From the NCBI GenBank assembly GCA_945901025.1, contig CAMDJW010000005.1:62001-126000 (forward strand): DNA of 64,000 bases. The letters are read 5' to 3'. The DNA is from Spirosoma fluviale (GTDB taxonomy: Bacteria > Bacteroidota > Bacteroidia > Cytophagales > Spirosomataceae). Of the stretch, positions 25,830 through 59,050 are shown piece by piece; the first letter of the stretch is position 1; the number at the start of each line of letters is the position of its first letter. The notes under the pieces were generated by a model that saw only the letters and a list, made by a program, of their open reading frames with translations, was not told the DNA's origin and did not search any database. Position numbers and translations under genes: made by a program.

Positions 25830-25848
25830 CTAGTGATCGCGTAGGGAT
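25830..25848. other. Left attachment site: 19-bp copy of the tRNA-Arg 3' end
   Basis: CTAGTGATCGCGTAGGGAT is identical to 59032-59050, in the same orientation. It covers the last 15 nt of the tRNA (3' part of the T stem and the acceptor) plus 4 nt of flank. The sequence diverges at once on both sides. The integrase gene starts 155 bp inside. Confidence 0.9.
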
Positions 25849-25962
25849 CACGAATAATTCACTCGTTTTCACACAAATGCACTTAAAATACTATCTATAT
25901 GACATTTAAAGATATATCAATAAGCAAGTCTATGCAAAAAAAAGTATTAAAAAGTAATAAAA

Positions 25963-25982
25963 CCTTTACCTAAACCTTTACC
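25963..25982. repeat. Tandem CCTTTACC pair, probable integrase arm sites (left)
   Basis: CCTTTACC at 25963-25970 and 25975-25982, 12 bp apart, with a partial third unit CCTTTATT after them. The same octamer pair with identical spacing lies at 58959-58978, near the other end. It is 20 bp before the integrase ATG, so it could also regulate that gene. Confidence 0.7.
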
Positions 25983-26002
25983 TTTATTGAAAATTTATAG
26001 CG

Positions 26003-27208
26003 ATGTCAACAATCAATATTATTCTTCGTAAAGACAAAATAAAGAAAACTACTGGAAAGTGTCCATTGTACATGCGTGTGATCGAGGGAGAAAAAATAAC
26101 GGTGATATCATTAGGTCAAGATATTCTTGAGGAAGAATGGGATGATAAAAAGCAAAAGGCTAAAAGCAAGCATTCGAATTCCTCCAGAATAAACAATTTG
26201 ATTTCTCAAAAGCTTAGTGAAGCAGAGAGTTTTAAGATTGAACTAAATGGTAAGCCAGGGCTTGGAGAACTTCTCAAAAAAGGAAAAGTTAAATTAGTGG
26301 AACGAAGTTTTACGAGTTATTTTAACGAATACTTAGGAGAATTAAAAAGAGCTCAAATTGCAGGAACGTTTAGGAAGTCAGAATCTATTTTAAAAAAGCT
26401 GACCGATTATAATAAACAACGAGATATTTCATTTAAGGAGCTTGATCTTGAGTTTTTAAAAAACTACGAGAAGCATCTTCGTAAATTAGGAAACTCTACA
26501 AACACGATACATGCAAATTTCAGGGTTATAAGAATGCTCTTAAATAGAGCTGTTAAGGAAGATGTCATCCTGATTCAAAATAATCCATTTAATAAGTATA
26601 AACTTAAAGCAGAAAAAACTGAAAAAACTTTTTTGACAGAAGAAGAAATTAAATCATTCGATAATGTGGTAGTTACTACAGGAAGTGCAATGGCAAAGCA
26701 TAAAGATATATTTGTTTTTGCTTGCTATGCGGGAGGAATACGTATTTCAGATTTATTACAATTACGTTGGGAGCATTATGATCCTAAAAACGAAAAAGTA
26801 ACCTTTTTTATACAGAAAACTAAACAGCAACATTCCGTAAAATTACCTCCAAAAGCAAAAGAAATTATAAATAGATATAAGCCAGAAGGTGACTTAAAGG
26901 GCTTCATATTCCCTTTCTTAGACGACTCGGAAGATCTTTCTTCTCCATTTGTATTATTGAAGAGAATTTCTTCTGCTACAGCCTATATAAATAAGAATTT
27001 GAAAATATTAGCCAAGAAAGCAAATATCAATAAAAAAATAAGTCAACACATTTCAAGACATTCGTACGGTACAATGGCCCATAGTAAAGGCATGAGCATC
27101 GTCCATGTTTCAAAGATTATGGCACATTCAAATATAGCCACTACCCTAATCTATTCAAAGGTTCTTGGACTAGATCAAGATGAAGCCCAAGATAAAATAT
27201 TTTCATAA
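26003..27208 (+). CDS. int: Tyrosine recombinase / integrase
   Basis: This 401-residue site-specific recombinase has the three-part build of Bacteroidota integrases: an N-terminal arm-binding domain (residues about 1-95), a SAM-like core-binding domain (about 100-200, SFTSYFNEYLGELK onward) and a C-terminal catalytic domain. The catalytic residues are visible: R247 in GGIRISDLLQLRW, a Lys near 272-274, H349 and R352 in HISRHSYG, H375 in MAHSNIATT and the nucleophile Y384 in LIYSKV. Its position, 155 bp inside the left att copy, makes it the integrase of the 33-kb element. The tandem octamers just upstream probably bind its N-terminal domain. Confidence 0.95.
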   Translation: MSTINIILRKDKIKKTTGKCPLYMRVIEGEKITVISLGQDILEEEWDDKKQKAKSKHSNSSRINNLISQKLSEAESFKIELNGKPGLGELLKKGKVKLVERSFTSYFNEYLGELKRAQIAGTFRKSESILKKLTDYNKQRDISFKELDLEFLKNYEKHLRKLGNSTNTIHANFRVIRMLLNRAVKEDVILIQNNPFNKYKLKAEKTEKTFLTEEEIKSFDNVVVTTGSAMAKHKDIFVFACYAGGIRISDLLQLRWEHYDPKNEKVTFFIQKTKQQHSVKLPPKAKEIINRYKPEGDLKGFIFPFLDDSEDLSSPFVLLKRISSATAYINKNLKILAKKANINKKISQHISRHSYGTMAHSKGMSIVHVSKIMAHSNIATTLIYSKVLGLDQDEAQDKIFS

Positions 27209-27300
27209 GTCCCTTACCAAAAAAAATTATCAACTTTTAGTTAATTTGCAATTAACAATGAGACTAGGATGATGCAATGAAAGTATTTAACTAAATAATC

Positions 27301-28260
27301 ATGGATGAAATCGAAAGAAAAATTGCATTGGCAATTGATAAACTTGGAATTTCTTATTTTGAACATAAAAGGGAGGAGTTTGAATCGAACCCCCTATATG
27401 ATGCGGAATTAGATCAATTATTTTTTGATCCATCGAAATTTAGCCTTTTTGAAACAGAACTTCAAGTCGTTATTTCGGCATTAAAAGATGAAGGATTCAT
27501 TAAATTTAATGAAGATTTTGTCACACATGATGACCAGGAATTTTTTGAACAGCTCTATTTGCCTTTCCATATGGATTTTAAGAATTATTGTCTTTATTAC
27601 CAGGTTAAACCTGAGGAAGATTATTTGAATGAAACTTCTCTTGGCCTCCTTGAAATGTATGTTTCTAAGAACTTGGATACAAATAAAATATGGGGATCGC
27701 TTTGGGAGGTCTTATATCCTATACAAGAATTAATTGAAGAACACATCACAAAAGCCCTTTCTATGGGTGGGAAGTCAATAACTAATATAATTGATAACAT
27801 TATAATCAAAATTGAAGCGCTTATTCATAAAAGATTAACCAATCCGGATTGGGATGAATTCCGCGATGTTTACAAATATTATCTAGAAAAATTAGAAATC
27901 GAGGCATATAAAAGGTTCGAAACTGAAATTTCTCTTGAGGTATATTCAGAATCGACAGCAGAAAAGCTTGAATTTGGCATAAGTAAAGTTGCCTTGGTTT
28001 CATTGATTGATCTATTATTAAAGTGTGATATATTAACAAACCAGAAAGCAGCACTTCAATTTTGTCATGAACATTTTAGTTTTAAAGACAGTAAGAAAGT
28101 GAAAGCGGTTAGTTTAGGCACAAAAAAAACGCTAACAACTTTATACAACGAAGTAACTAATAAAAAGGATATGGGAGGTTTTTATGACATAAAAGAAATA
28201 CTTCTAGATCGATTGTCCAAAATTCCAGATAGACCCAAAAAGTATCCCGAAGACTCCTAA
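27301..28260 (+). CDS. Hypothetical protein next to the integrase (319 aa)
   Basis: I do not recognise a firm family. The protein is acidic, mostly helical by composition and lacks a signal peptide or membrane segment, so it is cytoplasmic. The region IWGSLWEVLYPIQELIEEHI (about residues 130-155) and the C-terminal HEHFSFKDSKKVKAVSLGTKK look like the most conserved parts. It stands alone between the integrase and a terminator (28275-28306). A regulator of element transfer or excision is possible by position, but nothing in the sequence proves it. Confidence 0.65.
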   Translation: MDEIERKIALAIDKLGISYFEHKREEFESNPLYDAELDQLFFDPSKFSLFETELQVVISALKDEGFIKFNEDFVTHDDQEFFEQLYLPFHMDFKNYCLYYQVKPEEDYLNETSLGLLEMYVSKNLDTNKIWGSLWEVLYPIQELIEEHITKALSMGGKSITNIIDNIIIKIEALIHKRLTNPDWDEFRDVYKYYLEKLEIEAYKRFETEISLEVYSESTAEKLEFGISKVALVSLIDLLLKCDILTNQKAALQFCHEHFSFKDSKKVKAVSLGTKKTLTTLYNEVTNKKDMGGFYDIKEILLDRLSKIPDRPKKYPEDS

Positions 28261-28443: not shown

Positions 28444-28698
28444 ATGATTTTTTTAAAGATTATAAATATGCAGAACAAAAAAATTCTACATCAGGAGAAC
28501 TATGTCCCTGAGGTAAACAATATGGATCCGATTTACACGACGGATCAGCTCATGAAGGTACTAAGCATCTGCCGACGTACTGCCCAGAATCTCCGCGATT
28601 CAGGTAAGCTAACTTTTTATAAGGTGGGTGGGAAAATGTTATATCGACACAGTGATATAATACGATTATTAGACAACCATAAAATCCAATCGTTTTAA
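28444..28698 (+). CDS. Excisionase/MerR-like helix-turn-helix protein
   Basis: This small DNA-binding protein has the HTH_17 pattern of Bacteroidota excisionase-like proteins: DPIYTTDQLMKVLSICRRTA followed by QNLRDSGKLTFYKVGGKMLY and RHSDIIRLLDNH. The full frame is 84 residues, but in-frame ATGs at 28468 and 28522 are equally possible starts; only the part after 28522 is conserved in this family. It ends 1 bp before the primase ATG, so the two are co-transcribed. In related elements such proteins control excision or replication. Confidence 0.8.
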   Translation: MIFLKIINMQNKKILHQENYVPEVNNMDPIYTTDQLMKVLSICRRTAQNLRDSGKLTFYKVGGKMLYRHSDIIRLLDNHKIQSF

Positions 28699-28699: not shown

Positions 28700-30160
28700 A
28701 TGGATGAATTAATAAATGGAAAGGAGGAGGGCAAGGCCCTCCCTACCAATCAAAATAATAAACTAAGTTCAGCGCATAACGCATCAAATGTTGTACCACA
28801 TGTCCAACTTTTTGAAAAGTTACTTTCAGAAATCACCCCTATTGACTTTCATTTAGAAGCTAAATTGAATGAAGGCGAACCTATAAAAGACAAACATATA
28901 GTTGTTGTTGCTGTGGATAAAATTATCGAAGCGGCTATAAACCACAATTGGGGTTTAATGGTGAAAAATAGCCAAGTCTCTATATATAATGGAGCTTATT
29001 GGCTTCAACTTGAAGAAGAACATGTGATGCACTTTCTTTTAAAATCAATAGAAAAATTAGGTCATAGGCCTGTTGATTCTAAATATCATAGGTTTGTAAA
29101 AGATCTATATTCTCAATTTTTAGTCTCCAGCTATATGCCCGCACCAGAAAAAGAATGCAATGAGGTATTAATTAATTTCAAAAATGGCACATTAATCATT
29201 GATGGCAATGGTGCAGTATACTTTAGAGAATTTCGAAAGGAAGATTATTTATTCTATCAACTTGGATTTAATTTCGACCCAAAAGCCGAGGCACCAAAGT
29301 TTCGTAAATATTTAATTAGGGTGCTGACTGAATATGAAGAAAGAAAAATTCTCGCTGAATATTGTGGGTATACGTTTCTGAAAAACTCAACTCTAAAGCT
29401 AGAGAAAGCGCTAATTCTTTATGGAAATGGATCAAATGGCAAATCGGCATTTTTTGAAATCCTAACTGCTATGTTAGGTCCGGATAATGTTACAAGCTAT
29501 AGTTTGCAGAGCCTTACCAATGAAAATGGCTACACAAGGGCTAAAATTCAAAATAAACTATTGAATTACGCCTCAGAAATATCCGTAAAGATGGATTCTG
29601 TCAACTTTAAAGCATTGGCATCTGGAGAGCCTATTGAAGCCAGGTTGCCATATGGGGAACCATTTATGTTAAAAAACTATGCTCGTTTAATTTTCAACAC
29701 AAACGAGCTCCCTCGTGAAATAGAACATAATGATGCGTTTTTTAGGCGCTTTTTAATTCTACATTTTGACCAGAAAATATCTGATAGCGAAAAAGATCCT
29801 CAATTATCGTACAAGATTATTGAGAACGAACTACCAGGTGTATTTAATTGGGTGATAGAAGGCTTGTACAGATTAATTAAGCAGAAAAATTTTACTAAAT
29901 CTGAAAAAGCGGAAAAAACATCCATTGCGTATCAACAGCAATCGGATTCAGTGTTTTCGTTTTTAGACGATATGGGTTATGCTAAGGGTGATATTAACAA
30001 AATGCCACTCCAATCCATGTATTCTGAATATAAAACGTATTGCGATAGCTACGGGTATAGAGCATGTGCTTTAAAATCTTTAAGCGAAAGACTAAGACGT
30101 CATGGATACGATGTGATTAGATACGCAAAAGGACACGTCGTACATTACAAAAAGTTATAG
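28700..30160 (+). CDS. P4/D5-type DNA primase-helicase
   Basis: This 486-residue replication protein has a D5_N-like region followed by a superfamily 3 helicase. Walker A is LILYGNGSNGKSAFFEIL (about residues 236-253). The Walker B/sensor part includes NKLLNYASEISVKM and KNYARLIFNTNELPREIEHN. A D5-type C-terminal region (ENELPGVFNWVIEGLYRLI) and a winged-helix-like tail follow. Such proteins unwind the origin of satellite phages, plasmids and integrative elements. It starts 1 bp after the HTH gene. Directly behind it lies a periodic palindrome (30176-30228) that could be an origin. Confidence 0.9.
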   Translation: MDELINGKEEGKALPTNQNNKLSSAHNASNVVPHVQLFEKLLSEITPIDFHLEAKLNEGEPIKDKHIVVVAVDKIIEAAINHNWGLMVKNSQVSIYNGAYWLQLEEEHVMHFLLKSIEKLGHRPVDSKYHRFVKDLYSQFLVSSYMPAPEKECNEVLINFKNGTLIIDGNGAVYFREFRKEDYLFYQLGFNFDPKAEAPKFRKYLIRVLTEYEERKILAEYCGYTFLKNSTLKLEKALILYGNGSNGKSAFFEILTAMLGPDNVTSYSLQSLTNENGYTRAKIQNKLLNYASEISVKMDSVNFKALASGEPIEARLPYGEPFMLKNYARLIFNTNELPREIEHNDAFFRRFLILHFDQKISDSEKDPQLSYKIIENELPGVFNWVIEGLYRLIKQKNFTKSEKAEKTSIAYQQQSDSVFSFLDDMGYAKGDINKMPLQSMYSEYKTYCDSYGYRACALKSLSERLRRHGYDVIRYAKGHVVHYKKL

Positions 30161-30744: not shown

Positions 30745-32259
30745 ATGAAAAATAAAATTTTACTCACTTCAATTTTACTAGCATTTTTTGCAACGGTAGG
30801 AAATAAAGAATTATTTGCTCAAAAAGGGGGTCATAACTTTTCCTTGTTTGGAGGACAGTCGAATTATTTAATAGAGCGACCAACCGGACAATCTAGTTTC
30901 ATTTTTAATAAGGTTGGTTTTGGATATGGATATGGGATAGGAAAAAAAATCAACCTATTTGTTAATGGTGAGCTTGGAGCACTGAGTTCTTCTAAAGTTC
31001 TAGTCATACCTGTAGTTTCTGATAATTCTTGCAGTTGCTTAACTTCTGGGATTGGAAGTCTTTCAACCCAACTGAGTTCTGTTTCACTAGGTCTTGAGTT
31101 TCCAATTTTAACCGTAAAAAAATTAAGCCTTAAGACAAGAATAGGCTCAAATTTTCAAGCCTTTGAAAACTCATTTACGAATGTTGTCGGTGAAAGGTAC
31201 AGGAGAGAATATAGCGGATTATTAGGATTACAACTAGATTACCGTATCAGCAAGAAATGGTCGCTTTTCATCAATACGACTGGCAATAAGCCCTATAAGA
31301 CTACACTTAAAGACCCTGACTATTATATGTCAAACAAACAAACGGATAATACTAAAGATTTTCTCGTTAATGGTGTTATTGGGATTACATTCAGTATAGA
31401 ACGAAAGAAAAATAAAGATTCAGATCAAGACGGGGTTAATGATGAACTTGATAAATGTCCAGATACACCCAAAGGGGAGACCGTAAATCAAGTTGGTTGT
31501 TCAGAAAATCAATTGGATGATGATGCGGATGGAATAGTTAACAAACTTGATAAATGCCCAGCTACCCCCAAAGGTGAAAAAGTAAATGCAAATGGTTGTT
31601 CCGATAGCCAGTTGGATGATGATTTGGACGGGGTGTCGAATCAAAAAGATAAATGTCCTAATACGCCGAAAGGCGAAAAGGTAAATGCAGATGGTTGTTC
31701 CGAAAGTCAATTAGATGAAGATAAGGATGGTGTAAATAACCTGATTGATATCTGTAAAAACACACAAGCGGGTCAAAAAGTAAATGCTTATGGGTGTGCT
31801 TTAAATCAAATGGATTCAGATGCCGATGGTGTTTTTGATGATGTGGATAAATGCCCTGAAGAAAAGGGTGATAAGCTAAATAATGGTTGTCCTGTTGTGT
31901 CTAAGAAAATTGAAAATAAGGTAATTGAAATAGCGAATGAGGTCAATTTTATAACAAATAAAGCTGACCTAACCGTACCATCAAAGTCTAAATTGAATGA
32001 ATTACTAGCCATTTTATTGGAAAATCCTGATTTAAAAATTATCATTTCAGGACATACAGATGATGTGGGGAATTCAGAATCTAATTTTGTGTTATCTGAA
32101 AAACGAGCCAATAGCGTGTTGAATTATTTGGCTGAAAAGGGAATAGCTAAGAGTCGCATGACTGCCTTGGCATTTGGCGAAGCGCAGTTGAAGGCCAATG
32201 AGATTTCCGAAGAATCTCGAGCCAAAAATAGACGTGTTGAAATAAAAATTTTAAAATAA
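30745..32259 (+). CDS. OmpA family outer membrane protein with thrombospondin type 3 repeats
   Basis: This 504-residue protein has a signal peptide (LLTSILLAFFATVGNKELFAQ). A predicted beta-barrel-like N-terminal domain (about 25-215) is followed by about five calcium-binding TSP3 repeats, for example DSDQDGVNDELDKCPDTPKG and DADGIVNKLDKCPATPKG (about 225-385). The C-terminal OmpA peptidoglycan-binding domain reads LLENPDLKIIISGHTDDVGN and SEKRANSVLNYLAEKGI, then RAKNRRVEIKI. It probably links the outer membrane to the cell wall. It opens the first cargo module of the element, 6 bp before a LamG lipoprotein gene. Confidence 0.9.
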   Translation: MKNKILLTSILLAFFATVGNKELFAQKGGHNFSLFGGQSNYLIERPTGQSSFIFNKVGFGYGYGIGKKINLFVNGELGALSSSKVLVIPVVSDNSCSCLTSGIGSLSTQLSSVSLGLEFPILTVKKLSLKTRIGSNFQAFENSFTNVVGERYRREYSGLLGLQLDYRISKKWSLFINTTGNKPYKTTLKDPDYYMSNKQTDNTKDFLVNGVIGITFSIERKKNKDSDQDGVNDELDKCPDTPKGETVNQVGCSENQLDDDADGIVNKLDKCPATPKGEKVNANGCSDSQLDDDLDGVSNQKDKCPNTPKGEKVNADGCSESQLDEDKDGVNNLIDICKNTQAGQKVNAYGCALNQMDSDADGVFDDVDKCPEEKGDKLNNGCPVVSKKIENKVIEIANEVNFITNKADLTVPSKSKLNELLAILLENPDLKIIISGHTDDVGNSESNFVLSEKRANSVLNYLAEKGIAKSRMTALAFGEAQLKANEISEESRAKNRRVEIKILK

Positions 32260-32265
32260 GTATCA

Positions 32266-33024
32266 ATGAAAAAATTAACAACCATTTTATTTTTATTGAT
32301 TTTAACGCTATTCAGCTGCACCAACCGTGATGAGGAAATCATTGATTCATTTAACTCCATAAAAGTTGGTTTAGTCGCGTATTATCCATTTAATGGAAAT
32401 GCTAATGATGTTAGTGGTAATTTTTCACATGGAACAGTTAATGGTAGTGTTAAATTGTCCTCAGATAGAAATGGGAAGCCAAATTCATCGTATTTTTTCC
32501 CAAAAGGTTATGGAAACTTAATTAGTATTCCGCACAATGATTTATTTAATTTTAATTCAGAATTTACAATTTCATTATGGTTCAAATTCAATGAACCTTG
32601 GGATTATCATGTTGAATCATTGATCTATAAATCTTATGTGAATTCTAACCGTGGGTGGCACATAGGTGTCAATCAAGATAATTCTATTTCAGATAAAAAA
32701 TTTGGAGTATATTTTGAATCACCAACTGCAAAAGTTGTTCCAATGTTTGAGTTTTTGTCTAAAGAAAATTTAGTTAATAAATGGATTAATGTTACGTATG
32801 TTTTTAAAGATAACTGTATGAAATGTTATTTAAATGGAATATGTTCATACGCGAAGCAAACCTATTTTAAAGATTTCAATAACAAAGAAAATATTACAAT
32901 TGGCTCATCAATAAATCCCGTAACTGGTACATATTTAAAAGAAATAGATGATATCGGCTTTTGGAATAGGGCGCTAACTGCCACAGAGGTAAATTATTTG
33001 TATTCTAATGGATTTGAACCATAA
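32266..33024 (+). CDS. LamG-domain lipoprotein
   Basis: This 252-residue lipoprotein (LFLLILTLFSC, Cys near residue 18) contains one LamG/concanavalin-like domain, a fold that often binds carbohydrates or proteins at the cell surface. The hallmarks are VGLVAYYPFNGNANDVSGN at the start, FTISLWFKFN, the strand GWHIGVNQDN and the end EIDDIGFWNRALTATEVNYLY. It follows the OmpA gene by 6 bp. A broken copy of the same C-terminal motif lies just downstream (33076-33148), suggesting an earlier tandem duplication. Confidence 0.88.
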   Translation: MKKLTTILFLLILTLFSCTNRDEEIIDSFNSIKVGLVAYYPFNGNANDVSGNFSHGTVNGSVKLSSDRNGKPNSSYFFPKGYGNLISIPHNDLFNFNSEFTISLWFKFNEPWDYHVESLIYKSYVNSNRGWHIGVNQDNSISDKKFGVYFESPTAKVVPMFEFLSKENLVNKWINVTYVFKDNCMKCYLNGICSYAKQTYFKDFNNKENITIGSSINPVTGTYLKEIDDIGFWNRALTATEVNYLYSNGFEP

Positions 33025-33075
33025 AGAATAATAAAATATAGATTGATTCCTTTTAAGTTTTCGGTATTTTAATAG

Positions 33076-33148
33076 TATGATCGATGACATTAGAGTTTAT
33101 CAAAAAATATTAACTTCAAAAGAAATAGCATGTTTAGTAAATGAATAA
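33076..33148 (+). pseudogene. Remnant of a LamG C-terminus
   Basis: The frame from 33076 reads MIDDIRVYQKILTSK. After a run of five A, the sense continues in another frame as EIACLVNE. This matches the DDIxxxxxxLTxxEI ending of LamG domains, as in the intact gene upstream (DDIGFWNRALTATEV). About 70 bp remain, with one frameshift. Confidence 0.55.
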
Positions 33149-33196
33149 ATCCTTGATTATATTTAAATATTTCAATGTTTGTAAAACTATTTTAGG

Positions 33197-37339: not shown

Positions 37340-37624
37340 AAAGGATGGTTTGAATAAGTGAGGGGCATTATACTTGTTTATTAGGATTTTAAGATCTTTA
37401 GCGTTCAACAATTTCCCTTTGACAAGAATTCTTTTTTAGAAAGTCAATAAATCTATAATTTACCACGTATCATTAAATCTACCGGGGATTAGAAAGTTGG
37501 GAATAAGAAAACATTATTAATAAATAATGTGATTAAATATTTTCGAATGAATTATTTTGTAATAAATAATATTCAGTAAAAATAAAGATTTGATGCTAAA
37601 ATTATAAATCCAACAATTTTCAAT

Positions 37625-38344: not shown

Positions 38345-38584
38345 TTATTTCCCCACCCTGAAATAGCTATACGGATACCATTTGCTAGCGATGCAATAAA
38401 GAATTTTATGTTCATCGTTTTTGACAATAGAATCTATATAGACATATGTTCCTACAGTTAAATTCCCAATGGACTTTATCACTTGAGCCCTTATCGGTGT
38501 AAAGAGCTCCATAATAATTCCTTTGGGCGTGATAACAAGTAATACATTTGGGTGCAGAAACTCGATTTGCTGTTTCTTTGCCAT
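38345..38584 (-). CDS. Hypothetical protein (79 aa) downstream of the DUF3871 gene
   Basis: No family is recognised. The protein is a likely small beta-rich cytoplasmic domain: NVLLVITPKGIIMELFTPIR, GTYVYIDSIVKND and ILYCIASKWYPYSYFRVGK. It follows the DUF3871 gene by 1 bp on the same strand, so it is the last gene of the recombination cassette. Such a small strand-rich protein could bind nucleic acid, which is only a guess. Confidence 0.6.
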   Translation of the reverse strand: MAKKQQIEFLHPNVLLVITPKGIIMELFTPIRAQVIKSIGNLTVGTYVYIDSIVKNDEHKILYCIASKWYPYSYFRVGK

Positions 38585-38585
38585 G

Positions 38586-40455: not shown

Positions 40456-40474
40456 CATTGAATTGGTTATAAAT

Positions 40475-40507
40475 GAAAAAAGGGGCATAGCTGAATGCTA
40501 CACCCCT
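40475..40507 (-). terminator. Terminator/attenuator between the 131-aa gene and the ATPase gene
   Basis: AGGGG (40481-40485) with CCCCT (40503-40507) and TAGC with GCTA form a two-part stem with a CA/CA internal loop. Six T follow on the minus strand. It would reduce expression of the ATPase and DUF3871 genes relative to the first gene of the cassette. Confidence 0.65.
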
Positions 40508-44745: not shown

Positions 44746-44764
44746 TACTTTAAACAATAAAAAA

Positions 44765-49778: not shown

Positions 49779-52580
49779 ATGAAAACTTTCAAATCTTTTG
49801 TGTTTGTCTATTTCGCATTTATTATGTTTTCATATGGACAGGAAAAATTATCTTTAGCTGGCACTTGGCAGGTGAAGCTCGACCCTTACAAACAGGGAAT
49901 TGCAGGTGAATGGTGGAAAAACGAATTTTCTGAAACATTGAAATTACCAGGATCGCTCACCGAAAATAAAATTGGTTATAAAGTTGATATTAACACACCA
50001 TGGACAGGCAATGTTATCGATAGTACCTATTTCTATTCTGATAAATATCAAAATTACCGAACTGATAATATTAAAGTGCCCTTTTGGCTTTTATCGGAAG
50101 TTTATTATCGGGGTGTTGCCTGGTACACCCGTACCATTGAAGTACCTCAGAATTGGAAGGGGAAAAATGTAATATTAAATTTGGAACGATGTCATTGGGA
50201 GAGCAGCGTATATATCAACGAGAAATATTGTGGCACTCAAAACAGCCTTGTTTCTAAGCATGATTATGACATCAGTCCATATCTAAAAGTTGGGATTAAT
50301 AGAATTACGATCCGGGTAAACAACGACTATATCATACCAATTGGTCCTAATTCTACAAGTATTACCGACCATACTCAAACCAATTGGAATGGAATAATTG
50401 GCGACATTTCGTTAAATGCGTACGAAAAAATTAAACTCAAAACGGTAAAAATATTTACCGATATTAAAAAATCTGAGATAACTATAAAATATATTTTAAA
50501 CAATCCAATAAGAGAAAAAAGAATTGGAAAAATTAGTTTTTATATTAACGGTTTTGAAGAGGTTATAAAAAATTTCGAAATTCAGAATGAAAATTTGGAG
50601 TCCGAACTTGTATACAAACTTCCAAATGCAAAGTTATGGGATGAATTCACCCCCAATCTCTATACTTTACAAATAAAGCTTTTTGACGTAAATGGATATA
50701 ATGTGCATAATGTATCGGAGGTATTTGGCTTGAGAAAAGTATCCATAAACGAGGGTAGGGTGGCCATAAATGACAGACCTGTTTTTTTGAGAGGCGATGT
50801 AGATTGCGCTGGTTTTCCTCTAACAGGATATCCGTCTACCGATGAGGCTGAATGGGAACGTATTTTCAAAACCATCAAATCTTATGGTTTGAATCATCTC
50901 AGATTCCACTCTTGGTGTCCTCCAAAAATTGCATTTTCAGTAGCAGATAGACTTGGGCTATATTTATACCCTGAAAGCCCAGTATGGGCCAATCAAGGAA
51001 GCGCAGTAGGTACTGGAGGCGTCGTGGATAGTTTTATTTATGCTGAAAGCGAAAGGATCATTGAAGAATATGGTAATCATCCCTCATTCATAATGATGTC
51101 TTCTGGAAACGAACCTGCGGGTGCCAACCAGAATACTTTTTTATCAGATTGGGTAGAACATTTTAAGGCCAAAGATAACCGACGTTTATATACCTCTGCG
51201 GCTGGCTGGCCCATGATTGCTGCCAATGATTTACATATTACGCCAACCGATGTTCGAATTCAAGGATGGGGACAGGAATTAAAAAGCATTATTAATTCAA
51301 AACAACCCTCATTTGATTATAATTGGCAAACGACATTAGATAAAATTGATAAACCCATAGTAAGCCACGAAATTGGTGAGTGGTGTGCATTCCCGAATCT
51401 AAACGAAATTAAAAAATACAAGGGTGTAATGAAGGCAAAAAATTTCGAAATTTTCAAAGAAACCTTAGAAAATAGTGGAATGGGGAGCCAAGCAGAGGAA
51501 TTTTTGTATGCCTCAGGAAGATTACAGACACTTTGCTACAAAGCCGATATTGAAGCAGCGCTCCGTACCCCAAAGTTTGGAGGTTTTCAGTTGTTGGGCT
51601 TACATGATTTTTCAGGCCAAGGAACTGCTCTTGTTGGCGCTTTAGACGCTTTTTGGGAGTCGAAAGGTTATACTAGCCCCGAAGAATATCGAACTTTTTG
51701 TAATTCTACAGTTCTTTTGGCAAAGTTTCAGAAACTTACATTTACCAATAAAGAATTAATAGATGTACCGCTCGATATTACCCATTTTGGGAATGCTCCG
51801 CTTAAAAATCAATTCATAGAATGGCAGGTTGTTGATGCCAATAATAAAATCTATGGTCAAGGAAATTTTGTTATCAAAGAAATCAAAATTGGAGATTCTC
51901 AGTATGTAGGAAACATTAAATTTTTACCCAATAACATAAAATCAGCCAAGCAATTAAAATTAAAAACAAGTGTGAAAGGCTCAGAGATAAATAACAGTTG
52001 GGATATTTGGGTGTATCCAAGTGAACTAAAAATTTCAACTGGTGGAGTTATGCTGGTAGACGAATTGACAGATGAAGTGATTTTGAAAATAAAAAATGGA
52101 CAAAATGTTTTGTATCTAGCCAACGGAGATGTAAAAGATACAAGTGTAAAAATCGGATTTTCAAGTATTTTTTGGAACACAGCTTGGACCGGTAATCAAG
52201 GTCCCAACACCATGGGACTAGCCTTAAATCCTGAACATGCTATATTTAAACATTTTCCCACTGAGCGTTTTAGCAATTATCAATGGTTTGATTTAATATC
52301 TAAAAGTCAAGCCATGATACTTAATGACTTTGACAAAAATTATAAGCCTCTCATTCAGCCTATAGACACTTGGTTTGAAAACAGGAAATTGGCTATAGGC
52401 TTTGAAACCAACATCGGTAAGGGGAAATTATTGGTTACCAGCATAGATTTAACAAGTGACATGCATAACCGAATAGTTTCAAACCAATTTAAATATAGTT
52501 TATTATCCTACATGAATAGCAAGGCTTTTGCTCCCGAGCATACTGTAGATATTCAAAAAATAAAAGCACTATTTAAATAA
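49779..52580 (+). CDS. Glycoside hydrolase family 2 enzyme, exported
   Basis: This 933-residue exported glycosidase has a signal peptide ending near FSYGQEK. The order is the GH2 sugar-binding domain (SLAGTWQVKLDP; NVILNLERCHWESSVYINEKYCG; ITDHTQTNWNGIIGDI), the immunoglobulin-like domain and the TIM barrel beginning at RPVFLRGDVDCAGFPLTGYP. The acid/base glutamate is in MMSSGNEPAG (about residue 447), and SHEIGEWCAFPN (about residue 530) holds the probable nucleophile. A long C-terminal extension of about 350 residues follows. The linkage (galactoside, glucuronide, mannoside) cannot be decided. It lies in the same direction as the SusC/SusD pair and the DUF5107 gene. Confidence 0.92.
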   Translation: MKTFKSFVFVYFAFIMFSYGQEKLSLAGTWQVKLDPYKQGIAGEWWKNEFSETLKLPGSLTENKIGYKVDINTPWTGNVIDSTYFYSDKYQNYRTDNIKVPFWLLSEVYYRGVAWYTRTIEVPQNWKGKNVILNLERCHWESSVYINEKYCGTQNSLVSKHDYDISPYLKVGINRITIRVNNDYIIPIGPNSTSITDHTQTNWNGIIGDISLNAYEKIKLKTVKIFTDIKKSEITIKYILNNPIREKRIGKISFYINGFEEVIKNFEIQNENLESELVYKLPNAKLWDEFTPNLYTLQIKLFDVNGYNVHNVSEVFGLRKVSINEGRVAINDRPVFLRGDVDCAGFPLTGYPSTDEAEWERIFKTIKSYGLNHLRFHSWCPPKIAFSVADRLGLYLYPESPVWANQGSAVGTGGVVDSFIYAESERIIEEYGNHPSFIMMSSGNEPAGANQNTFLSDWVEHFKAKDNRRLYTSAAGWPMIAANDLHITPTDVRIQGWGQELKSIINSKQPSFDYNWQTTLDKIDKPIVSHEIGEWCAFPNLNEIKKYKGVMKAKNFEIFKETLENSGMGSQAEEFLYASGRLQTLCYKADIEAALRTPKFGGFQLLGLHDFSGQGTALVGALDAFWESKGYTSPEEYRTFCNSTVLLAKFQKLTFTNKELIDVPLDITHFGNAPLKNQFIEWQVVDANNKIYGQGNFVIKEIKIGDSQYVGNIKFLPNNIKSAKQLKLKTSVKGSEINNSWDIWVYPSELKISTGGVMLVDELTDEVILKIKNGQNVLYLANGDVKDTSVKIGFSSIFWNTAWTGNQGPNTMGLALNPEHAIFKHFPTERFSNYQWFDLISKSQAMILNDFDKNYKPLIQPIDTWFENRKLAIGFETNIGKGKLLVTSIDLTSDMHNRIVSNQFKYSLLSYMNSKAFAPEHTVDIQKIKALFK

Positions 52581-52709: not shown

Positions 52710-55700
52710 ATGGAAAATAAATCGTATGTAAATGTTTGGGAGGAAAGCGTAATATTTCCTACATACGAAACTGGAGAACCTCAGAAAAATCCAATGTTTC
52801 TAGAAAAAAGAGTTTATCAGGGTAGTAGCGGTGTGGTATATCCAAATGCTATAATAGAAAGTGTGTCGAACACATCCGTTGATAAAATTTATCAGGCAAT
52901 TTATTTGGAAAACCAATTTATAAAAATAATGGTTTTGCCGGAACTAGGTGGTAGAATTCAGATGGCTTACGACAAAGTAAAAGAAAGGCATTTTGTGTAT
53001 TTCAACCAAGTAATAAAACCAGCTCTTGTGGGGTTAACAGGGCCTTGGATTTCAGGGGGTATTGAATTTAATTGGCCTCAGCACCATCGGCCAAGCACTT
53101 TTGAAGCAATAGATTTCAAAATTGAGGAAAATAAAAACGGGTCAAAAACAGTTTGGGTAAGTGAAATCGAACGTATGTTTTCCACAAAGGGTATGGCAGG
53201 TTTTACTTTATACCCGGATGCTGCTTACCTTGAGGTTAAGGGTGTTTTATATAATAGAACTTCTTTGCCGCAGACATTTTTGTGGTGGGCAAATCCAGCG
53301 GTTAAGGTAAATGATCATTATCAATCTATTTTCCCACCTGATGTTTATGCCGTTTATGACCACGGCAAGCGAGATGTTTCATCCTTCCCGATTGCCACTG
53401 GTTCATATTATAAGATAGACTATTCGCCAGGAACAGATATCTCAGGCTATAAAAATATTCCGGTACCCACTTCTTATATGGCTATTAATTCCAAGTATAA
53501 TTTTTTGGGAGGTTATGAACATGATACCCAAACGGGTATTTTACATGTTGCAAATCACCATATTTCGCCAGGAAAAAAACAATGGACTTGGGGCAATGGT
53601 GAGTTTGGAAATGCGTGGGAAAGGAATTTAACTGATGAAGATGGGCCATATATAGAATTGATGACAGGTGTATTCACTGACAATCAACCAGATTTTTCTT
53701 GGATAATGCCCAACGAGGAAAAGCATTTTACTCAATATTTTATGCCTTATAGCGAAATAGGTGTTGTTAAAAATGCTACCAAAGACTTGGCGATAAATCT
53801 AGAGGTCTCAGAAAATGAATACCAAATTATGGTATATGCCAGTGGAATTCAAGGTGATTTAATCGTAGAACTTTTGTCAACTAATCAGCTTATTTTTTCG
53901 GAAAAAATCAATGTTTCTCCTTATCAAGTATATCGTCGCAAGAATTTCGAAAGTTTTACCGATTACGAAAGCCTAGAATTACGTATTAAAGACGCAACAG
54001 GTAAAGTTTTGATTTCATATAGTCCTGAAAAACCTATTGTAGGTGAATTACCCGAGGCTGCTATTGCTGCCAAACTACCCCATCAAATAGAGAGCTGTGA
54101 GCAACTTTTTCTTACAGGCTTACATATAGAACAGTACCGCCATGCCACCTATATAGCCACTGATTATTATGAAGAAGCATTAAAAAGAGATCCTAAAGAT
54201 ACAAAATCTAATAATGCAATGGGGTTATGGTATTTCAAAAAAGGGCGTTTTTTGAAATCGAAAAACTATTTTGAAAAAGCAATAGCTACTTTAACTAATC
54301 GTAACCCTAATCCTTACAATAGTGAAGCTTATTATAATTTAGGTTTGTGTCTAAAAAAACTTGAATATTACGAGGACGCTTATTCGGCTTTTTATAAGGC
54401 CACTTGGGCTGCCGCATGGCAAGATGTTGCTTATTTGGAATTGGCCCGAATTGCGACAATTAAAAAAGACCACATGATGGCTATCGAACACGCAAACGAT
54501 GCTATCAATAGAAATTATAGAGGTCATGCAGCACGAAATGTAATGATAGCTAACCTTCGCATTACTGGGGATTTTGAAAAAGCACTGAAATTGATACACA
54601 TTGCACTCGAAATGGACTCACTTAATGCAATATGTATTTTTGAAAAGTATTTAATATTAAAAAATACTGATTTAACAGAAGCAAATGTAATTCTACTCGA
54701 TTTCAAATTACTGATGAGAGGCTATGTGCATAATTATATCGAATATACCTTTGAATATATGTCAGCTGGTTTATTCGATGAAGCATCTCAATTATTGGAA
54801 AATTACCTAAATACTACAAAAGAAATTTACCCAATAGCGCTTTATATCGCTGCATTTTTAGCTGAAAAATTAAATAAAAATTATTTAAAATTTAAATTTT
54901 TGTCAGATGCACAAAAAGCTAATCCTGACTTTGTATTTCCCAACAGATTAGACGAGAAAATCGTTCTTGAATGGGCTTTGGCACAAAATGATGATGCCAA
55001 TGCGTGCTATTTTTTAGGAAATTATTGGTATTCTCACCGACAGTATGACGATGCCGTCTTATGTTGGGAAAAATCTCTGGCCCTTCAACCGAATTTCGCA
55101 ACTGTTCACCGCAATCTTTCATTGGCTTATTTCAACAAACAAAAAATGTTAGAAAAAGGACTTGAAAGCATGAAAGAAGCTTTTAGGTTGGATAATTCAG
55201 ATGCCCGGATTTTAATGGAATTAGACCAATTACATAAAATCATGAATTATGATGTAATCTTTAGGTTACAATTTCTTGAAAAGAATCCTTCGTTAGTCGA
55301 AAAGCGAGAGGATTTGAACTTAGAATATATATCACTTTTAAATATCTTAGGAGATTATGGAAAAGCCAAAGAAATGCTTTTAAAGAGAGTTTTTCATCCT
55401 TGGGAGGGTGGAGAAGGGAAAGTCATTGGTCAATATTTATTCTGTCAAACTGAACTGGCAAAAATTGAGATAAAAAACCAAAATTATGAAATGGCAATTC
55501 ATCTATTAAATGAAGCTAAGGTATATCCAAAAAATTTAGGTGAGGGGAAAATCTACGGAACACAAGAAAATGATATAGATTACTTAATCGGATTATGCTA
55601 TGAATTTAAAGAAAATAAAGCCGAAGCCAATCGATATTTTGAAATGGCTACGGAAGGACTCGAAGAGCCAGTGCAAGCAATTTTTTATAACGACCAGCAG

Positions 55701-56051
55701 CCCGATAAACTTTTCTATCAAGGCTTAGCTTGGCAAAAACTTAGCCAGCATTTAAAAAAATCCGTGATTTTTGACAAGCTAATAAACTTTGGTAAAAAGC
55801 ATGAAAATGATGAAATAAAAATAGACTTTTTTGCCGTTTCATTGCCTGATTTATTAGTCTTCGATGTCGACTTAAATCAAAAGAATTTTATTCATTGCCA
55901 ATATATGAAGGGTTTAGGATATTTAGGAAAGGGTTTGATTGACATTGCAAGTCAATATTTTGATAATGTATTGAGTATGAGTAAAGTACATATGGGAGCA
56001 ATGGCTCACAAAAATCTAATAGTGCATCATAAAAAAATATTATCTGTTTAA
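52710..56051 (+). CDS. DUF5107 and tetratricopeptide repeat protein
   Basis: This 1113-residue protein has no signal peptide and is probably cytoplasmic. The first part (about residues 20-345) is the DUF5107 domain: IKIMVLPELGGRIQMAYDK, GGIEFNWPQHHRPSTFEAID and NGEFGNAWERNLTDEDGPYIELMTG, with a fold reminiscent of aldose epimerases. The rest is a series of TPR units (for example TKSNNAMGLWYFKKGRFLKSK, AYYNLGLCLKKLEYYEDAYSA). Such proteins accompany GH2 enzymes and sugar porters in Bacteroidota loci, possibly as intracellular glycosidases or sugar-modifying enzymes, but the activity is unproven. It ends 10 bp before the porter gene. Confidence 0.9.
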   Translation: MENKSYVNVWEESVIFPTYETGEPQKNPMFLEKRVYQGSSGVVYPNAIIESVSNTSVDKIYQAIYLENQFIKIMVLPELGGRIQMAYDKVKERHFVYFNQVIKPALVGLTGPWISGGIEFNWPQHHRPSTFEAIDFKIEENKNGSKTVWVSEIERMFSTKGMAGFTLYPDAAYLEVKGVLYNRTSLPQTFLWWANPAVKVNDHYQSIFPPDVYAVYDHGKRDVSSFPIATGSYYKIDYSPGTDISGYKNIPVPTSYMAINSKYNFLGGYEHDTQTGILHVANHHISPGKKQWTWGNGEFGNAWERNLTDEDGPYIELMTGVFTDNQPDFSWIMPNEEKHFTQYFMPYSEIGVVKNATKDLAINLEVSENEYQIMVYASGIQGDLIVELLSTNQLIFSEKINVSPYQVYRRKNFESFTDYESLELRIKDATGKVLISYSPEKPIVGELPEAAIAAKLPHQIESCEQLFLTGLHIEQYRHATYIATDYYEEALKRDPKDTKSNNAMGLWYFKKGRFLKSKNYFEKAIATLTNRNPNPYNSEAYYNLGLCLKKLEYYEDAYSAFYKATWAAAWQDVAYLELARIATIKKDHMMAIEHANDAINRNYRGHAARNVMIANLRITGDFEKALKLIHIALEMDSLNAICIFEKYLILKNTDLTEANVILLDFKLLMRGYVHNYIEYTFEYMSAGLFDEASQLLENYLNTTKEIYPIALYIAAFLAEKLNKNYLKFKFLSDAQKANPDFVFPNRLDEKIVLEWALAQNDDANACYFLGNYWYSHRQYDDAVLCWEKSLALQPNFATVHRNLSLAYFNKQKMLEKGLESMKEAFRLDNSDARILMELDQLHKIMNYDVIFRLQFLEKNPSLVEKREDLNLEYISLLNILGDYGKAKEMLLKRVFHPWEGGEGKVIGQYLFCQTELAKIEIKNQNYEMAIHLLNEAKVYPKNLGEGKIYGTQENDIDYLIGLCYEFKENKAEANRYFEMATEGLEEPVQAIFYNDQQPDKLFYQGLAWQKLSQHLKKSVIFDKLINFGKKHENDEIKIDFFAVSLPDLLVFDVDLNQKNFIHCQYMKGLGYLGKGLIDIASQYFDNVLSMSKVHMGAMAHKNLIVHHKKILSV

Positions 56052-56061: not shown

Positions 56062-57381
56062 ATGAATTCAAAGTACACACTCTTTATTTCCTTCATATCA
56101 GCTCTTGGAGGATATTTATTCGGTTTTGACTTTGCTGTTATTGCAGGGGCGTTACCATTCTTAAAACAGGTTTATGTTTTAGATCCATGGTGGGTGGGTT
56201 TTTTAACTGGTACATTAGCAATTGGGTGTATGGCAGGCTGCCTACTTGCAGGATTACTTTCTGAAAGAATTGGCCGAAAACCTTCCTTGATGATTTCTGC
56301 ATTATTTTTTGCAATATCCTCTTTAGGAATGGCTTTTTCTAATACACTCTCCATTTTTCTTTTAATGCGTTTTGGTGCTGGTATTGGCGTTGGGATGGCC
56401 TCCATGTTGTCGCCATTGTATATTGCAGAAGTTTCTCCAGCAGAAATGAGAGGCAGAAATGTTTCCATCAATCAGCTTACTATTGTCTTGGGTATCTTAA
56501 TTACTAATCTTGTTAATTATTTCTTGGCAGACACTGGCCCAGATGCTTGGCGCTGGATGTTTGGTCTTGGGGCAGTGCCATCTTTCCTATTTTTTGGAGG
56601 TGTGTTGTTTTTACCTGAAAGCCCCCGATGGTTAATTTTAAATCAAAAAGTAGGGGAAGCCCGTATAATATTAGAAAAAATTGGTGGAAAATCGTTCGCA
56701 GAAACCACACTATTGAGTATTGAAAAATCACAGAAAATAGTCGTCAAAAATAGTAATATGTTTCAAAAGAAATTTTTACCAGCCATTTTTGTGGGTGTAG
56801 GCCTTGCCATATTTCAGCAATTTTGTGGTATAAATGTTGTTTTTAATTATACGTCAACACTGTATGAGTCATTAGGTGCAGACCTCAACCGGCAACTTTT
56901 AGAAACTATTTTTATAGGAGTTGTAAATGTAATTTTTACTCTCGTGGCCATGTTGCAAGTAGATAAATTGGGAAGAAGGCCACTTATGTTGTTTGGTAGT
57001 TTAGGGTTGACAATTTTATACATAATTATAGCTTCGGTACTACAATTAAAGCTAGACCCCATCATTTTATCGGTATTTGTCTTGATAGCAATTAGTATTT
57101 ATTCATCTACCATCGCACCTGTTACATGGGTACTTATTTCGGAGATTTTTCCTAACGAAATTCGTGGCAAGGCCTCATCTTTTGCCATATTATGTTTGTG
57201 GGCATCTTATTTTATTTTAGTATTTACGTTTCCCATCTTAGCAGAAAAATTAGGCACTTATGGTCCTTTTTGGTTGTATGCGAGTATTTGTTTAGTAGGA
57301 TTTTGGTTTATTAAAGTCAATGTTAAAGAAACTAAAGGCAAGACACTAGAGCAAATGGAAGATATATTTTTACCCCATTAA
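56062..57381 (+). CDS. Sugar porter family MFS transporter
   Basis: This 439-residue inner-membrane sugar/proton symporter has about twelve transmembrane helices. The family signatures are GGYLFGFDFAVIAGALPF, the loop SERIGRKPSL (RxGRKP), the central VLFLPESPRWLI (PESPRW), QQFCGINVVFNYTSTL, DKLGRRPLML and the end VKETKGKTLEQMEDIF (PETKG-type). It starts 10 bp after the DUF5107 gene, so it is the last gene of the cargo operon. Together with the outer-membrane SusC it would complete uptake of the released sugar. The substrate is unknown. Confidence 0.93.
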   Translation: MNSKYTLFISFISALGGYLFGFDFAVIAGALPFLKQVYVLDPWWVGFLTGTLAIGCMAGCLLAGLLSERIGRKPSLMISALFFAISSLGMAFSNTLSIFLLMRFGAGIGVGMASMLSPLYIAEVSPAEMRGRNVSINQLTIVLGILITNLVNYFLADTGPDAWRWMFGLGAVPSFLFFGGVLFLPESPRWLILNQKVGEARIILEKIGGKSFAETTLLSIEKSQKIVVKNSNMFQKKFLPAIFVGVGLAIFQQFCGINVVFNYTSTLYESLGADLNRQLLETIFIGVVNVIFTLVAMLQVDKLGRRPLMLFGSLGLTILYIIIASVLQLKLDPIILSVFVLIAISIYSSTIAPVTWVLISEIFPNEIRGKASSFAILCLWASYFILVFTFPILAEKLGTYGPFWLYASICLVGFWFIKVNVKETKGKTLEQMEDIFLPH

Positions 57382-57588: not shown

Positions 57589-58488
57589 CTACTCTCTCCT
57601 TTTTTTTCTATATTCTACAGCTGATACTCCAATTAGTTTTTTAAATAATCTGGAAAAATAGTATTGGTCGGTAATACCTAGCTCAAAGGAAATTTCTTTA
57701 ATCCTACTTTCTGTAAATAAAAGATACTGACAAGCTTTTTGCACCTTAAGGTGATTAAAATACTCAATAGGGGCAAAACCAGTTTTTTTTCGAAATAAGA
57801 AGGAAAAGTGTGAAGCTGACAAATTTACTTCATTTGATATATCTTGTAAGCTCAATAATTTGTTAGTATTATTTTTTAGAAATTCTATTGCCAAATCAAT
57901 TGAATCTTTAGAAAATGTCGAATTATCAAAATTTCTTTGAGTTTTATAAATACAAGTGGTGATAAAATGCCAAAAACACATGTTAGTATAGGTTAAATTA
58001 TCGGAACTATACCCATTTTCTAGCTGGCTATAAATTTCTTCAAATTGCAAAACCATTTTTTCGACATCATGTAATAATCCCTTGTAGCCAAGCATCTTAT
58101 TATTTACTAAATCAATAATACAACGACCAATGTTACCTTTAAAATGAACCCAATAAATAGACCATGGATTATTTTCATCTGAAACATATTTATGTCCTAA
58201 TTTTGCAGGAATTACAACAAACTCACCTGGGTTTAAACAATAAATTACTTTTTGAATAGTAATTTCCCCTTTTCCCTCAACACAACAAATCAAAATATTT
58301 TGCTCACTCCCGTTTAACCTTTCACGATAATGAAATCTAGCTTTTGGGTAGAAACCAATATCAGTAATATAAAGTGTATTTATAATTTCATTCTTCTCAA
58401 TCTGATAATTTAATATTTTTCTTGGAATGATTATTCCTTTTTGACCTTGGAAACCTTTATGTTTTTTGATGTTTTGACCAGTTAACAT
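57589..58488 (-). CDS. AraC family transcriptional regulator
   Basis: This 299-residue activator has an N-terminal cupin sensor domain (GEGEITIQKVIYCLNPGEFV, IPAKLGHKY, about residues 70-115) and a C-terminal double helix-turn-helix: LLSLQDISNEVNLSASHFSF and LFRKKTGFAPIEYFNHLKV, then ISFELGITDQYYFSRLFKKL. Regulators of this build respond to a sugar and switch on the neighbouring utilisation genes. It is convergent with the porter gene at the right edge of the cargo locus, and the region from its start to the att site is gene-free. It is the most likely regulator of 41674-57381. Confidence 0.93.
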   Translation of the reverse strand: MLTGQNIKKHKGFQGQKGIIIPRKILNYQIEKNEIINTLYITDIGFYPKARFHYRERLNGSEQNILICCVEGKGEITIQKVIYCLNPGEFVVIPAKLGHKYVSDENNPWSIYWVHFKGNIGRCIIDLVNNKMLGYKGLLHDVEKMVLQFEEIYSQLENGYSSDNLTYTNMCFWHFITTCIYKTQRNFDNSTFSKDSIDLAIEFLKNNTNKLLSLQDISNEVNLSASHFSFLFRKKTGFAPIEYFNHLKVQKACQYLLFTESRIKEISFELGITDQYYFSRLFKKLIGVSAVEYRKKRRE

Positions 58489-58958
58489 TTTGGATTTATT
58501 TATTAAATAAAATTAATGTAATCAATTGTACGTCGTCAAACTAAAGTGGACTTTTCCTTAAGGAGTGTTTCGTGTTTTTGTGAATTTATAATTTCTTTTT
58601 TTTCTGTGCAATCTTTGGCTGTTTTTATTTTCTCATAGTTCAATCTTCATTATTTCCTGTATCGTTTAAATTTAAACAACCCCACATTTCATTCGAAACC
58701 CCCTCTCGTGCTACCCGATTTGTTAGCACTCACATAAAATAAAAGAATCCCAAATTAATCAATTCTTGAGGCTATTTTTAATTTCCTTTTGCACATTAAT
58801 GCTATATATTATATATGAGAACCTAAATCGTATTAAAGGGGTAAACAGGTAAAATATTGCCGATGGGTTATACGCCTTCTCTTTCATCTATAAATGCAAT
58901 AAATCAAAGCGTATGTAATTGAGAGTAAACAGAAGTAAATGGGTGGATTAACACAAAA
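58489..58958. other. 470-bp gene-free right end of the element
   Basis: No coding frame is convincing. It holds AT-rich sequence that may contain the AraC promoter. A stretch near 58530-58560 (AAACTAAAGTGGACTTTTCC) resembles the end of an insertion sequence but is too short to call. Confidence 0.5.
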
Positions 58959-58978
58959 CCTTTACCTATACCTTTACC
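58959..58978. repeat. Tandem CCTTTACC pair, probable integrase arm sites (right)
   Basis: CCTTTACC at 58959-58966 and 58971-58978, 12 bp apart and in the same orientation as the left pair at 25963-25982. The context AAAACCTTTACCTAxACCTTTACCT is almost identical at the two ends. It lies 54 bp from the right att copy. Confidence 0.7.
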
Positions 58979-58988
58979 TGTTAAATAT

Positions 58989-59021
58989 AAAGGCCTCTAA
59001 TAGATTGATTTAGAGGCCTTT
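58989..59021 (-). terminator. Element-supplied terminator behind tRNA-Arg
   Basis: AAAGGCCTCTAA (58989-59000) and TTAGAGGCCTTT (59010-59021) pair perfectly over 12 bp with a 9-nt loop. It lies 15 bp beyond the tRNA 3' end, inside the element, and so replaces the stranded terminator at 25782-25817. Confidence 0.85.
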
Positions 59022-59031
59022 ATGCGTAATA

Positions 59032-59050
59032 CTAGTGATCGCGTAGGGAT
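59032..59050. other. Right attachment site within the tRNA-Arg 3' end
   Basis: This is the second copy of CTAGTGATCGCGTAGGGAT. It includes the tRNA discriminator base, acceptor strand and 3' half of the T stem, so integration keeps the tRNA functional. Confidence 0.9.

Follow-up and report, generated by a model that had tools for sequence, protein, structure and literature searches.

Whole glycan-utilization loci come and go in the genomes of Bacteroidota, and the best-known vehicles for them are conjugative. Tycheposons, to our knowledge, carry no conjugation genes; judged by analogy they would be the nearest described counterpart of the element reported here, a 33.2-kb insertion that carries a sugar locus at a tRNA-Arg gene in a 64,000-nt window (the whole stretch of DNA that was analysed) of a genome of 2,637,534 bases in 32 contigs (G000). 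The genus of this host and of its close relatives is, we infer, Aquirufa. According to the portion of PMC10872708 that was available, the tycheposons of Prochlorococcus, reported also in Methylophilaceae, have a tRNA border, a tyrosine recombinase and nutrient-use cargo, all three of which the window element has as well, and the accessible part of PMC11389934 lists them among proposed satellites. The likeness is drawn from the descriptions, and there are differences: the phylum is another, the backbone here is a DUF3871/Sak4-like/p131 module, and the cargo is a SusC/SusD locus or, in sister elements, defence genes.

Mobile sugar loci and tRNA-targeting elements are each already known. For gut Bacteroidetes, the database of PMC6907783 holds 47 SusC/SusD loci on mobile elements; in the available portion of that paper, a relaxase defines integrative and conjugative elements (ICEs) and integrative mobilizable elements (IMEs), and the rest are unclassed genomic islands. 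SusC/SusD loci on mobile DNA are common to those elements and the present one, which, since the classes depend on a relaxase, would fall among the unclassed islands; it differs from them in that boundaries, sisters and a module are resolved here and that its host is an Aquirufa from fresh water. IMEs of the NBU type have a tRNA-targeting integrase and primase genes, a layout that the window element shares, although searches for two relaxase families gave no match (PF03432; PF01076, for which the search control was silent). P4-like and other phage satellites have in common with it a P4-family primase and tRNA integration, as well as the defence cargo of its sisters, but differ in that no capsid-interfering or packaging gene was recognised here and that the metabolic cargo is large.

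We judge, with a probability of roughly 0.87, that this stretch is an integrative mobile element, one of a Bacteroidota family whose target is the 3′ end of tRNA genes. Direct support comes from a tRNA-bounded insertion, an empty site in relatives, a full-length integrase, arm repeats at both ends and a backbone common to four sister elements. No description of a Bacteroidota family of this make-up was found, judging from titles and abstracts, in the literature searched, outside which most subscription journals fell, so that this is not proof of absence; DUF3871 itself turned up in one paper; the Aquirufa papers looked at name genomic islands only in their reference lists. In this freshwater genus of small genomes, glycan loci are carried by elements in which no conjugation genes were recognised.

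Insertion at tRNA-Arg and the unoccupied site

The limits of the element and the site that it occupies are marked by the following features:

25787..25819, minus: terminator that first followed tRNA-Arg, displaced to the left flank; scores as a terminator and is found after the tRNA at empty sites
25830..25848, plus: left core repeat (copy of the tRNA-Arg 3′ end), limit of the element; G028, G001, G026 and G016 have the same core at their empty sites
25959..25983, plus: arm-type direct repeat at the integrase end; paired equivalents at both ends in 5/5 elements
58955..58979, plus: arm-type direct repeat at the tRNA end, from the repeat comparison of five elements
58987..59023, minus: hairpin with 14-bp arms beside the tRNA-end core, a possible replacement terminator; it folds, and a stem-loop is present in 5/5 elements
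59032..59050, plus: right core repeat, the tRNA-Arg 3′ end with three bases past it, from a repeat search
59035..59109, minus: tRNA-Arg(acg), the attachment gene (ARAGORN)

This tRNA-Arg(acg) is the single tRNA of the window, and its 3′ end is copied in a 19-bp core, CTAGTGATCGCGTAGGGAT, which occurs exactly at both limits. A preliminary description of the window had reported the repeat and had itself raised the objection that the left copy might be a chance match. That objection failed: no further copy at up to three mismatches was found in the window or in 100 shuffles, the core is present in the whole genome (2.64 Mb, up to one mismatch) only at the two element limits, and equivalent repeats bound four sister elements.

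The unoccupied site is preserved in relatives. The tRNA-Arg gene is followed directly by the window's left flank in G028 (96.6% identity over 328 bp) and in G001 (89.3% over 319 bp), just as predicted in the preliminary description, which had proposed a single tRNA-Arg with the present left-end terminator directly behind it; the match is shorter in G026 and G016, where the first 102 and 47 bp, respectively, agree with the left flank (92% and 96%), terminator included, before the sequences diverge. In 22 of the 23 loci of the genus, that of the window among them, the tRNA adjoins an enoyl-CoA hydratase gene; the contig of the remaining one (L009) stops just beyond the hydratase gene. An ordinary chromosomal sugar locus lying by a tRNA with a chance repeat, for which it could be said that the seven sugar genes are found together in other Cytophagales, is already refuted by the existence of the empty site; four sisters of the same architecture and a repeat with just two genomic copies also stand against it, and we give it practically no weight.

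Just inside both ends, the window element and its four sisters each carry a pair of ~10-bp units spaced 11–12 bp apart, which probably serve as arm sites for the integrase. The unit is AACCTTTACCT in the window element, ACCTGTACC in the G017 element and TGTTGTACC in those of G015, G030 and G012, one G012 copy differing by one base. A stem-loop likewise lies inside the tRNA-end core, within the last 95 bases, in all five, as if each element brought a replacement terminator for the tRNA; a consensus terminator scan of the hairpin at 58987-59023 gives no terminator call.

The G+C content in 2-kb windows is 29–39% inside the element, against 35–44% in most of the flanks, and composition alone fails to mark the left limit because the drop sets in outside the element, near 23 kb on its left. 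The low-G+C stretch at 22962-25829 holds broken Fic pieces and an HTH_3 gene that is 61% identical to an HTH gene of the G030 element; the left-flank Fic is common to G028 and G001, but no copy turned up at the loci of G026 and G016. This stretch is probably what remains of an earlier element that had entered this tRNA. The first 261 bases of a G018 contig (L008/L074) carry an element-like right end in the same tRNA-Arg (89% over 82 bp), and we take this contig end for a further, unassembled member of the family.

Backbone genes and sister elements

The genes of the element that recur in its sisters, in addition to its primase, are as follows:

26003..27208, plus: tyrosine integrase, start codon 154 bp inside the left core
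27301..28260, plus: slot-2 protein, 319 aa, fast-evolving; the sister slot holds 277–294 aa proteins (4/4)
28444..28698, plus: HTH_17 protein, relatives in 5/5 elements
28700..30160, plus: P4-family primase/helicase (D5, DUF5906), TIGR01613 above cut-off
38345..38584, minus: p79, small module protein, in 5/5 elements
38586..39602, minus: DUF3871 protein, in 5/5 elements; predicted fold like phage DUF932/TIGR03299 models
39595..40488, minus: AAA_24 ATPase, Sak4-like, in 5/5 elements
40530..40925, minus: p131, small module protein, in 5/5 elements; no Pfam family

The integrase, placed just inside one repeat by the preliminary description as well, scores above cut-off for Phage_int_SAM_5, Phage_integrase and Arm-DNA-bind_5, and its residues R247, K274, H349, R352, H375 and Y384, which we take to be the catalytic set, are invariant across the five elements. 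The HTH/primase pair of that description also held up, the HTH_17 protein being a probable excisionase or regulator. No Pfam family above cut-off was found for the slot-2 protein, and its AlphaFold model is unusable (mean pLDDT 51). An identity as RteC, suggested by the C-terminal pattern, was rejected: five slot-2 proteins gave no RteC match even at E 10, PF09357 was not matched in G000 or G017, and profile comparison gave a probability below 1%. An RteC homologue after the integrase, as in CTnDOT-type regulated excision, was not found here.

The four genes at 38345-40925 (minus strand), p79-DUF3871-AAA_24-p131, form a module. Its AAA_24 protein strongly matches PHROG 1366 (unknown function) and, at E 2.7e-9, PHROG 124 (Sak4-like annealing), and is probably an annealing or recombination ATPase; a role of p131 in single-strand binding would be a guess. 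The AlphaFold model of the DUF3871 protein (mean pLDDT 84.6, from 44 sequences) retrieved 20 viral models from BFVD at E ≤ 1e-3, with TM-scores of 0.33–0.55 on the query; six of them are named DUF932 or TIGR03299, the others being unnamed or uncharacterised. None of the solved structures matched the fold at E ≤ 0.001, and the best sequence match, a coat protein (E 0.014), was taken as chance.

An integrase search (E ≤ 1e-30) of 99 genomes, 38 of them Aquirufa, matched 19 genomes overall and five of the Aquirufa (own counted). Four further complete Aquirufa elements are bounded by tRNA 3′-end cores and are listed here with that of the window:

G000 (window): tRNA-Arg(acg), core 19 bp, 33.2 kb
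G030: tRNA-Arg(acg), core 16 bp, 17.7 kb
G017: tRNA-Lys, core 18 bp, 26.1 kb
G015: tRNA-Val, core 19 bp, 22.5 kb
G012: tRNA-Arg(ccg), core 26 bp, 39.3 kb

Read inward from the tRNA-distal end, all five present arm repeats, the integrase (start about 135–160 bp inside the core; 43–78% identity between elements), a slot-2 protein of 277–319 aa and an HTH_17-type protein, with the module further in, in an orientation that in G017 is inverted relative to the other four. The slot after HTH_17 is occupied by the D5 primase in G000 and G017. In G015 a DUF3987 protein (helicase PHROG) stands there, and G030 and G012 have DUF5131 and a 475–476 aa protein without assignment; a recognised helicase or primase is present in three of the five. 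A third core copy lies in the G012 genome 2.4 kb past the element, inside a 62-bp repeat (contig C6 367256-369701; L067, L078), and may be a sign of tandem insertion at one tRNA. G047, which has integrase and module, was rejected as a bounded element, no tRNA-end repeat having been found.

The full-length open reading frames (ORFs) of integrase, primase and module, the conserved integrase residues, and the presence of both cores and both arm pairs all argue against a dead remnant, that is, an old immobile insertion kept for its cargo. Such a remnant would agree with the occurrence of the element in one genome, with the broken mobile-type genes (Fic pieces) of the adjoining left flank and with a window module that has no excess identity to those of its sisters; we hold it to be quite improbable. 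When module identity was compared with that of one core gene, the module was the more similar in 10 of the 21 genome pairs, and these pairs involve G030, G012, G010, G019 and G031 only.

Taken together, the backbone would work as follows. The integrase, together with the HTH_17 protein, would recombine the two cores and so release a circle, and the D5 helicase/primase and the DUF3871/Sak4-like/p131 module would replicate or repair it. The circle would then cross between cells with a helper (a phage, a conjugative element, a vesicle or DNA uptake), which would be needed because no relaxase, conjugation or capsid genes were recognised, and would reinsert; the incoming element would keep the tRNA intact with the 3′ piece and the hairpin that it carries. 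Its cargo would be exchangeable: here a seven-gene locus from outside the genus, in sisters another sugar locus or anti-phage genes. The module, the arm repeats at both ends and the older-looking mobile DNA of the left flank were absent from the preliminary description and were found here.

Cargo of the window element and its sisters

Two blocks of cargo, both described from Pfam scans or family profiles, flank the module:

30745..38257, plus: cargo A, with OmpA/TSP3, LamG, Por_Secre_tail and beta-barrel surface proteins (Pfam scan)
41674..44745, plus: SusC-type TonB-dependent transporter (family profiles)
44735..46336, plus: SusD-type protein (family profile)
46404..49700, plus: FG-GAP/ASPIC-UnbV protein (family profile)
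49779..52580, plus: GH2 enzyme; nearest NCBIfam model BT4151 exo-beta-1,4-galactosidase, below cut-off
52710..56051, plus: DUF5107-TPR protein (family profile)
56062..57381, plus: sugar porter of the MFS type (family profiles)
57589..58488, minus: AraC-type regulator with AraC/cupin ligand domain (family profile)

The last seven genes (41674-58488) contain the SusC/SusD-GH2-porter-AraC cargo named in the preliminary description, and with adjacent SusC and SusD genes, a glycoside hydrolase and a regulator they have the composition of a polysaccharide utilization locus. The GH2 enzyme is not a member of the BT4151 family because it scores 1091.6 bits against a cut-off of 1500; the likeliest substrate of the locus would be a beta-galactoside glycan.

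At E ≤ 1e-100 the GH2 enzyme occurs in 5/99 genomes and, among the 38 Aquirufa, many of which are incomplete assemblies, in its own genome only, the other 37 giving no match. The FG-GAP protein is widespread in the order (206/390 genomes at E ≤ 1e-150). Five loci outside the window were examined: G040, G382 and G352, which are Cytophagales with larger genomes (9.0, 8.2 and 6.6 Mb), have all seven genes within 17–21 kb at 36–72% identity, and in G060 and G101 three and one of the seven, respectively, lie in the fetched stretch. The distribution suggests that the seven-gene locus was taken up from outside the genus by the element or its ancestor.

The cargo of the family varies, consisting of sugar loci (in the window, G012 and probably G010) or of defence genes. 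That of G012 includes an alpha-L-fucosidase, GH43 proteins, SusC, SusD and a SASA esterase, and further a galactokinase, galT, a galE-like epimerase, regulators, transporters and a SIR2 gene. G017 carries type I restriction, AbiGi and IetA/IetS; G015 carries AbiH and a protein matching the PADLOC candidate PDC-M26A; and G030 carries a SIR2 protein, for which the models matched are PDC-S25 and ThsA, as well as a TPR-S protein with a match to a TIR-effector model. Ten proteins were submitted to PADLOC, of which nine were matched.

The strongest case for a joint movement of sugar cargo and module is the pair G010 and G012. G010 has a SASA-galK-galT-epimerase block with the module and, 352 bp on, tRNA-Val, and the same block and module stand in the tRNA-Arg(ccg) element of G012; the sugar genes share 86.4% nucleotide identity across 4040 bp, compared with 81.4% in one core gene. 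Only one end of the G010 element is visible because its contig begins inside the sugar block. The earlier proposal that the locus spreads as a unit is thereby supported at the level of the family, with one block and module at different tRNAs, and is presumed for the window's own locus, which may, as that description also proposed, bring recipients a new growth substrate. A second SusC/SusD locus lies in the window outside the element (8343-15740, minus), with BNR-repeat and GFO/IDH/MocA proteins.

Possible transfer, and distribution of the module

Neither conjugation nor capsid genes were recognised among the proteins and families scanned, in agreement with the preliminary description. Relaxase PF03432 (control scored in Lactococcus) and TraG TIGR03783 were each found in 0/8 Aquirufa genomes, so the relaxase and conjugation genes of an ICE were not seen, and no capsid, portal or terminase of a prophage appeared in Pfam scans of 17 window-element proteins. 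Of structural matches, PHROG searches with seven element proteins gave just two weak ones to tail and head families (E 1.5e-4 and 5.6e-4), on a 1380-aa secreted protein. Since no relaxase, TraG or phage structural gene was recognised, the element looks helper-dependent, and it is probably a ‘hitcher’, in the sense given to the term in the available part of PMC11389934, resembling tycheposons.

A DUF3871-seeded scan of named genomes, in which 80 of 86 relatives were kept, placed these relatives across Bacteroidota, and an even draw of the phylum found one in 9/148 genomes (own included). The 80, together with one viral contig, gave 81 loci with up to 10 kb on each side, nine of them being Aquirufa contigs analysed here. 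AAA_24 is also present in 55 of the 81 and p131 in 44, and a member of the integrase cluster in 35 (38/84 when three viral loci fetched by integrase are counted). A tRNA 3′-end repeat of at least 23 bp brackets 13/81 loci, with DUF3871 inside in every case, the tRNAs being Phe, Gly, Ala, Asn, Val, Ser, Asp, Leu, Met and Arg. As a control, the 43 tRNAs in these loci were considered: the 3′ end was repeated downstream in 13 and upstream in none, and the 5′ end downstream in none. A looser first scan had given 15/84 loci, of which L124 and L133 failed the stricter rule.

Several observations weigh against the view of a mobile family with travelling sugar cargo. The module ATPase occurs in 8/38 Aquirufa genomes and the integrase in only 5/38, none being found at E 1e-30 in the module carriers G010, G019 and G031. 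Each of the 11 pairs that include G000 or G015 has a module identity below that of the core gene, and the window module therefore gives no sign of recent exchange by this test. The window's SusC/SusD genes were found in 0/13 tRNA-bracketed loci outside Aquirufa, so that sugar cargo has up to now been observed in Aquirufa alone. Mob_Pre PF01076 was found in 0/8 Aquirufa genomes, but this is no evidence of absence because the search control was silent, and the family scans covered part of the sister-element ORFs. Excision, replication and transfer, finally, are steps that we infer from sequence, whereas the insertion and the family are solid.

How the circle would cross cells divides two further explanations. 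In the first, which takes up a suggestion of the preliminary description, the element would be a phage satellite, excised, replicated and packaged in helper-phage particles. The P4-family D5 primase, the Sak4-like ATPase and the DUF932-like predicted fold are phage-type genes; one relative (L180) is classed as a virus in IMG/VR, no structural gene being found among its seven proteins scanned; and MT839478.1, deposited as ‘Bacteriophage sp.’, has the AAA_24-DUF3871 pair. Set against these are the failure to recognise any capsid, terminase or portal gene, the range of element sizes (17.7 to 39.3 kb), a pattern-seeded IMG/VR scan that yielded one DUF3871 relative only, and the chance that the faecal record is bacterial carry-over. 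We regard packaging of this kind as possible, though the odds are against it. A scan of viral contigs for the integrase found just three distant relatives (23–29% identity). MT839478.1 itself (L235) is a 4.3-kb record from human faeces in Mexico that also has a relative of the 165-aa gene located after the module in G017. It may be a packaged relative or bacterial carry-over, and is a weak lead, a link to a particle-sequencing paper having been sought and not confirmed.

In the second explanation, the element would be an integrative mobilizable element without relaxase (iOriT), in which a hidden oriT lets it be carried by a conjugative element. The available part of PMC11389934 reports such elements and notes how difficult they are to detect, and TraG-type conjugation genes (TIGR03783) are present in 2/2 genomes reached via other DUF3871 loci. 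However, with PF03432 and TIGR03783 not found in the eight Aquirufa genomes searched, no resident conjugative helper is evident, and we think this route unlikely.

A broader proposal goes beyond the integrative element favoured here: that a phylum-wide, unnamed, tRNA-targeting family, marked by the module and lacking conjugation and capsid genes, moves complete glycan loci and anti-phage systems between Bacteroidota in phage particles. We consider it rather doubtful. If it were true, the element would be a satellite that both feeds and protects its host. For the family as described here, the shared marker module makes members easy to find, and lakes offer a concrete and testable setting for the joint travel of sugar niches and phage defence. 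The DUF3871 marker is also present in gut Bacteroides elements, which links both habitats. One such record, NZ_OY725960.1 (L234), is a 15.5-kb circular Bacteroides finegoldii plasmid typed as non-mobilizable. It was rejected as an excised form with the same layout, since no tRNA piece was found with 53 tRNAs tried; it holds two integrases, HTH genes (among them a relative of the HTH_17 gene), DUF3871 and a restriction-modification gene, and may be a circular relative.

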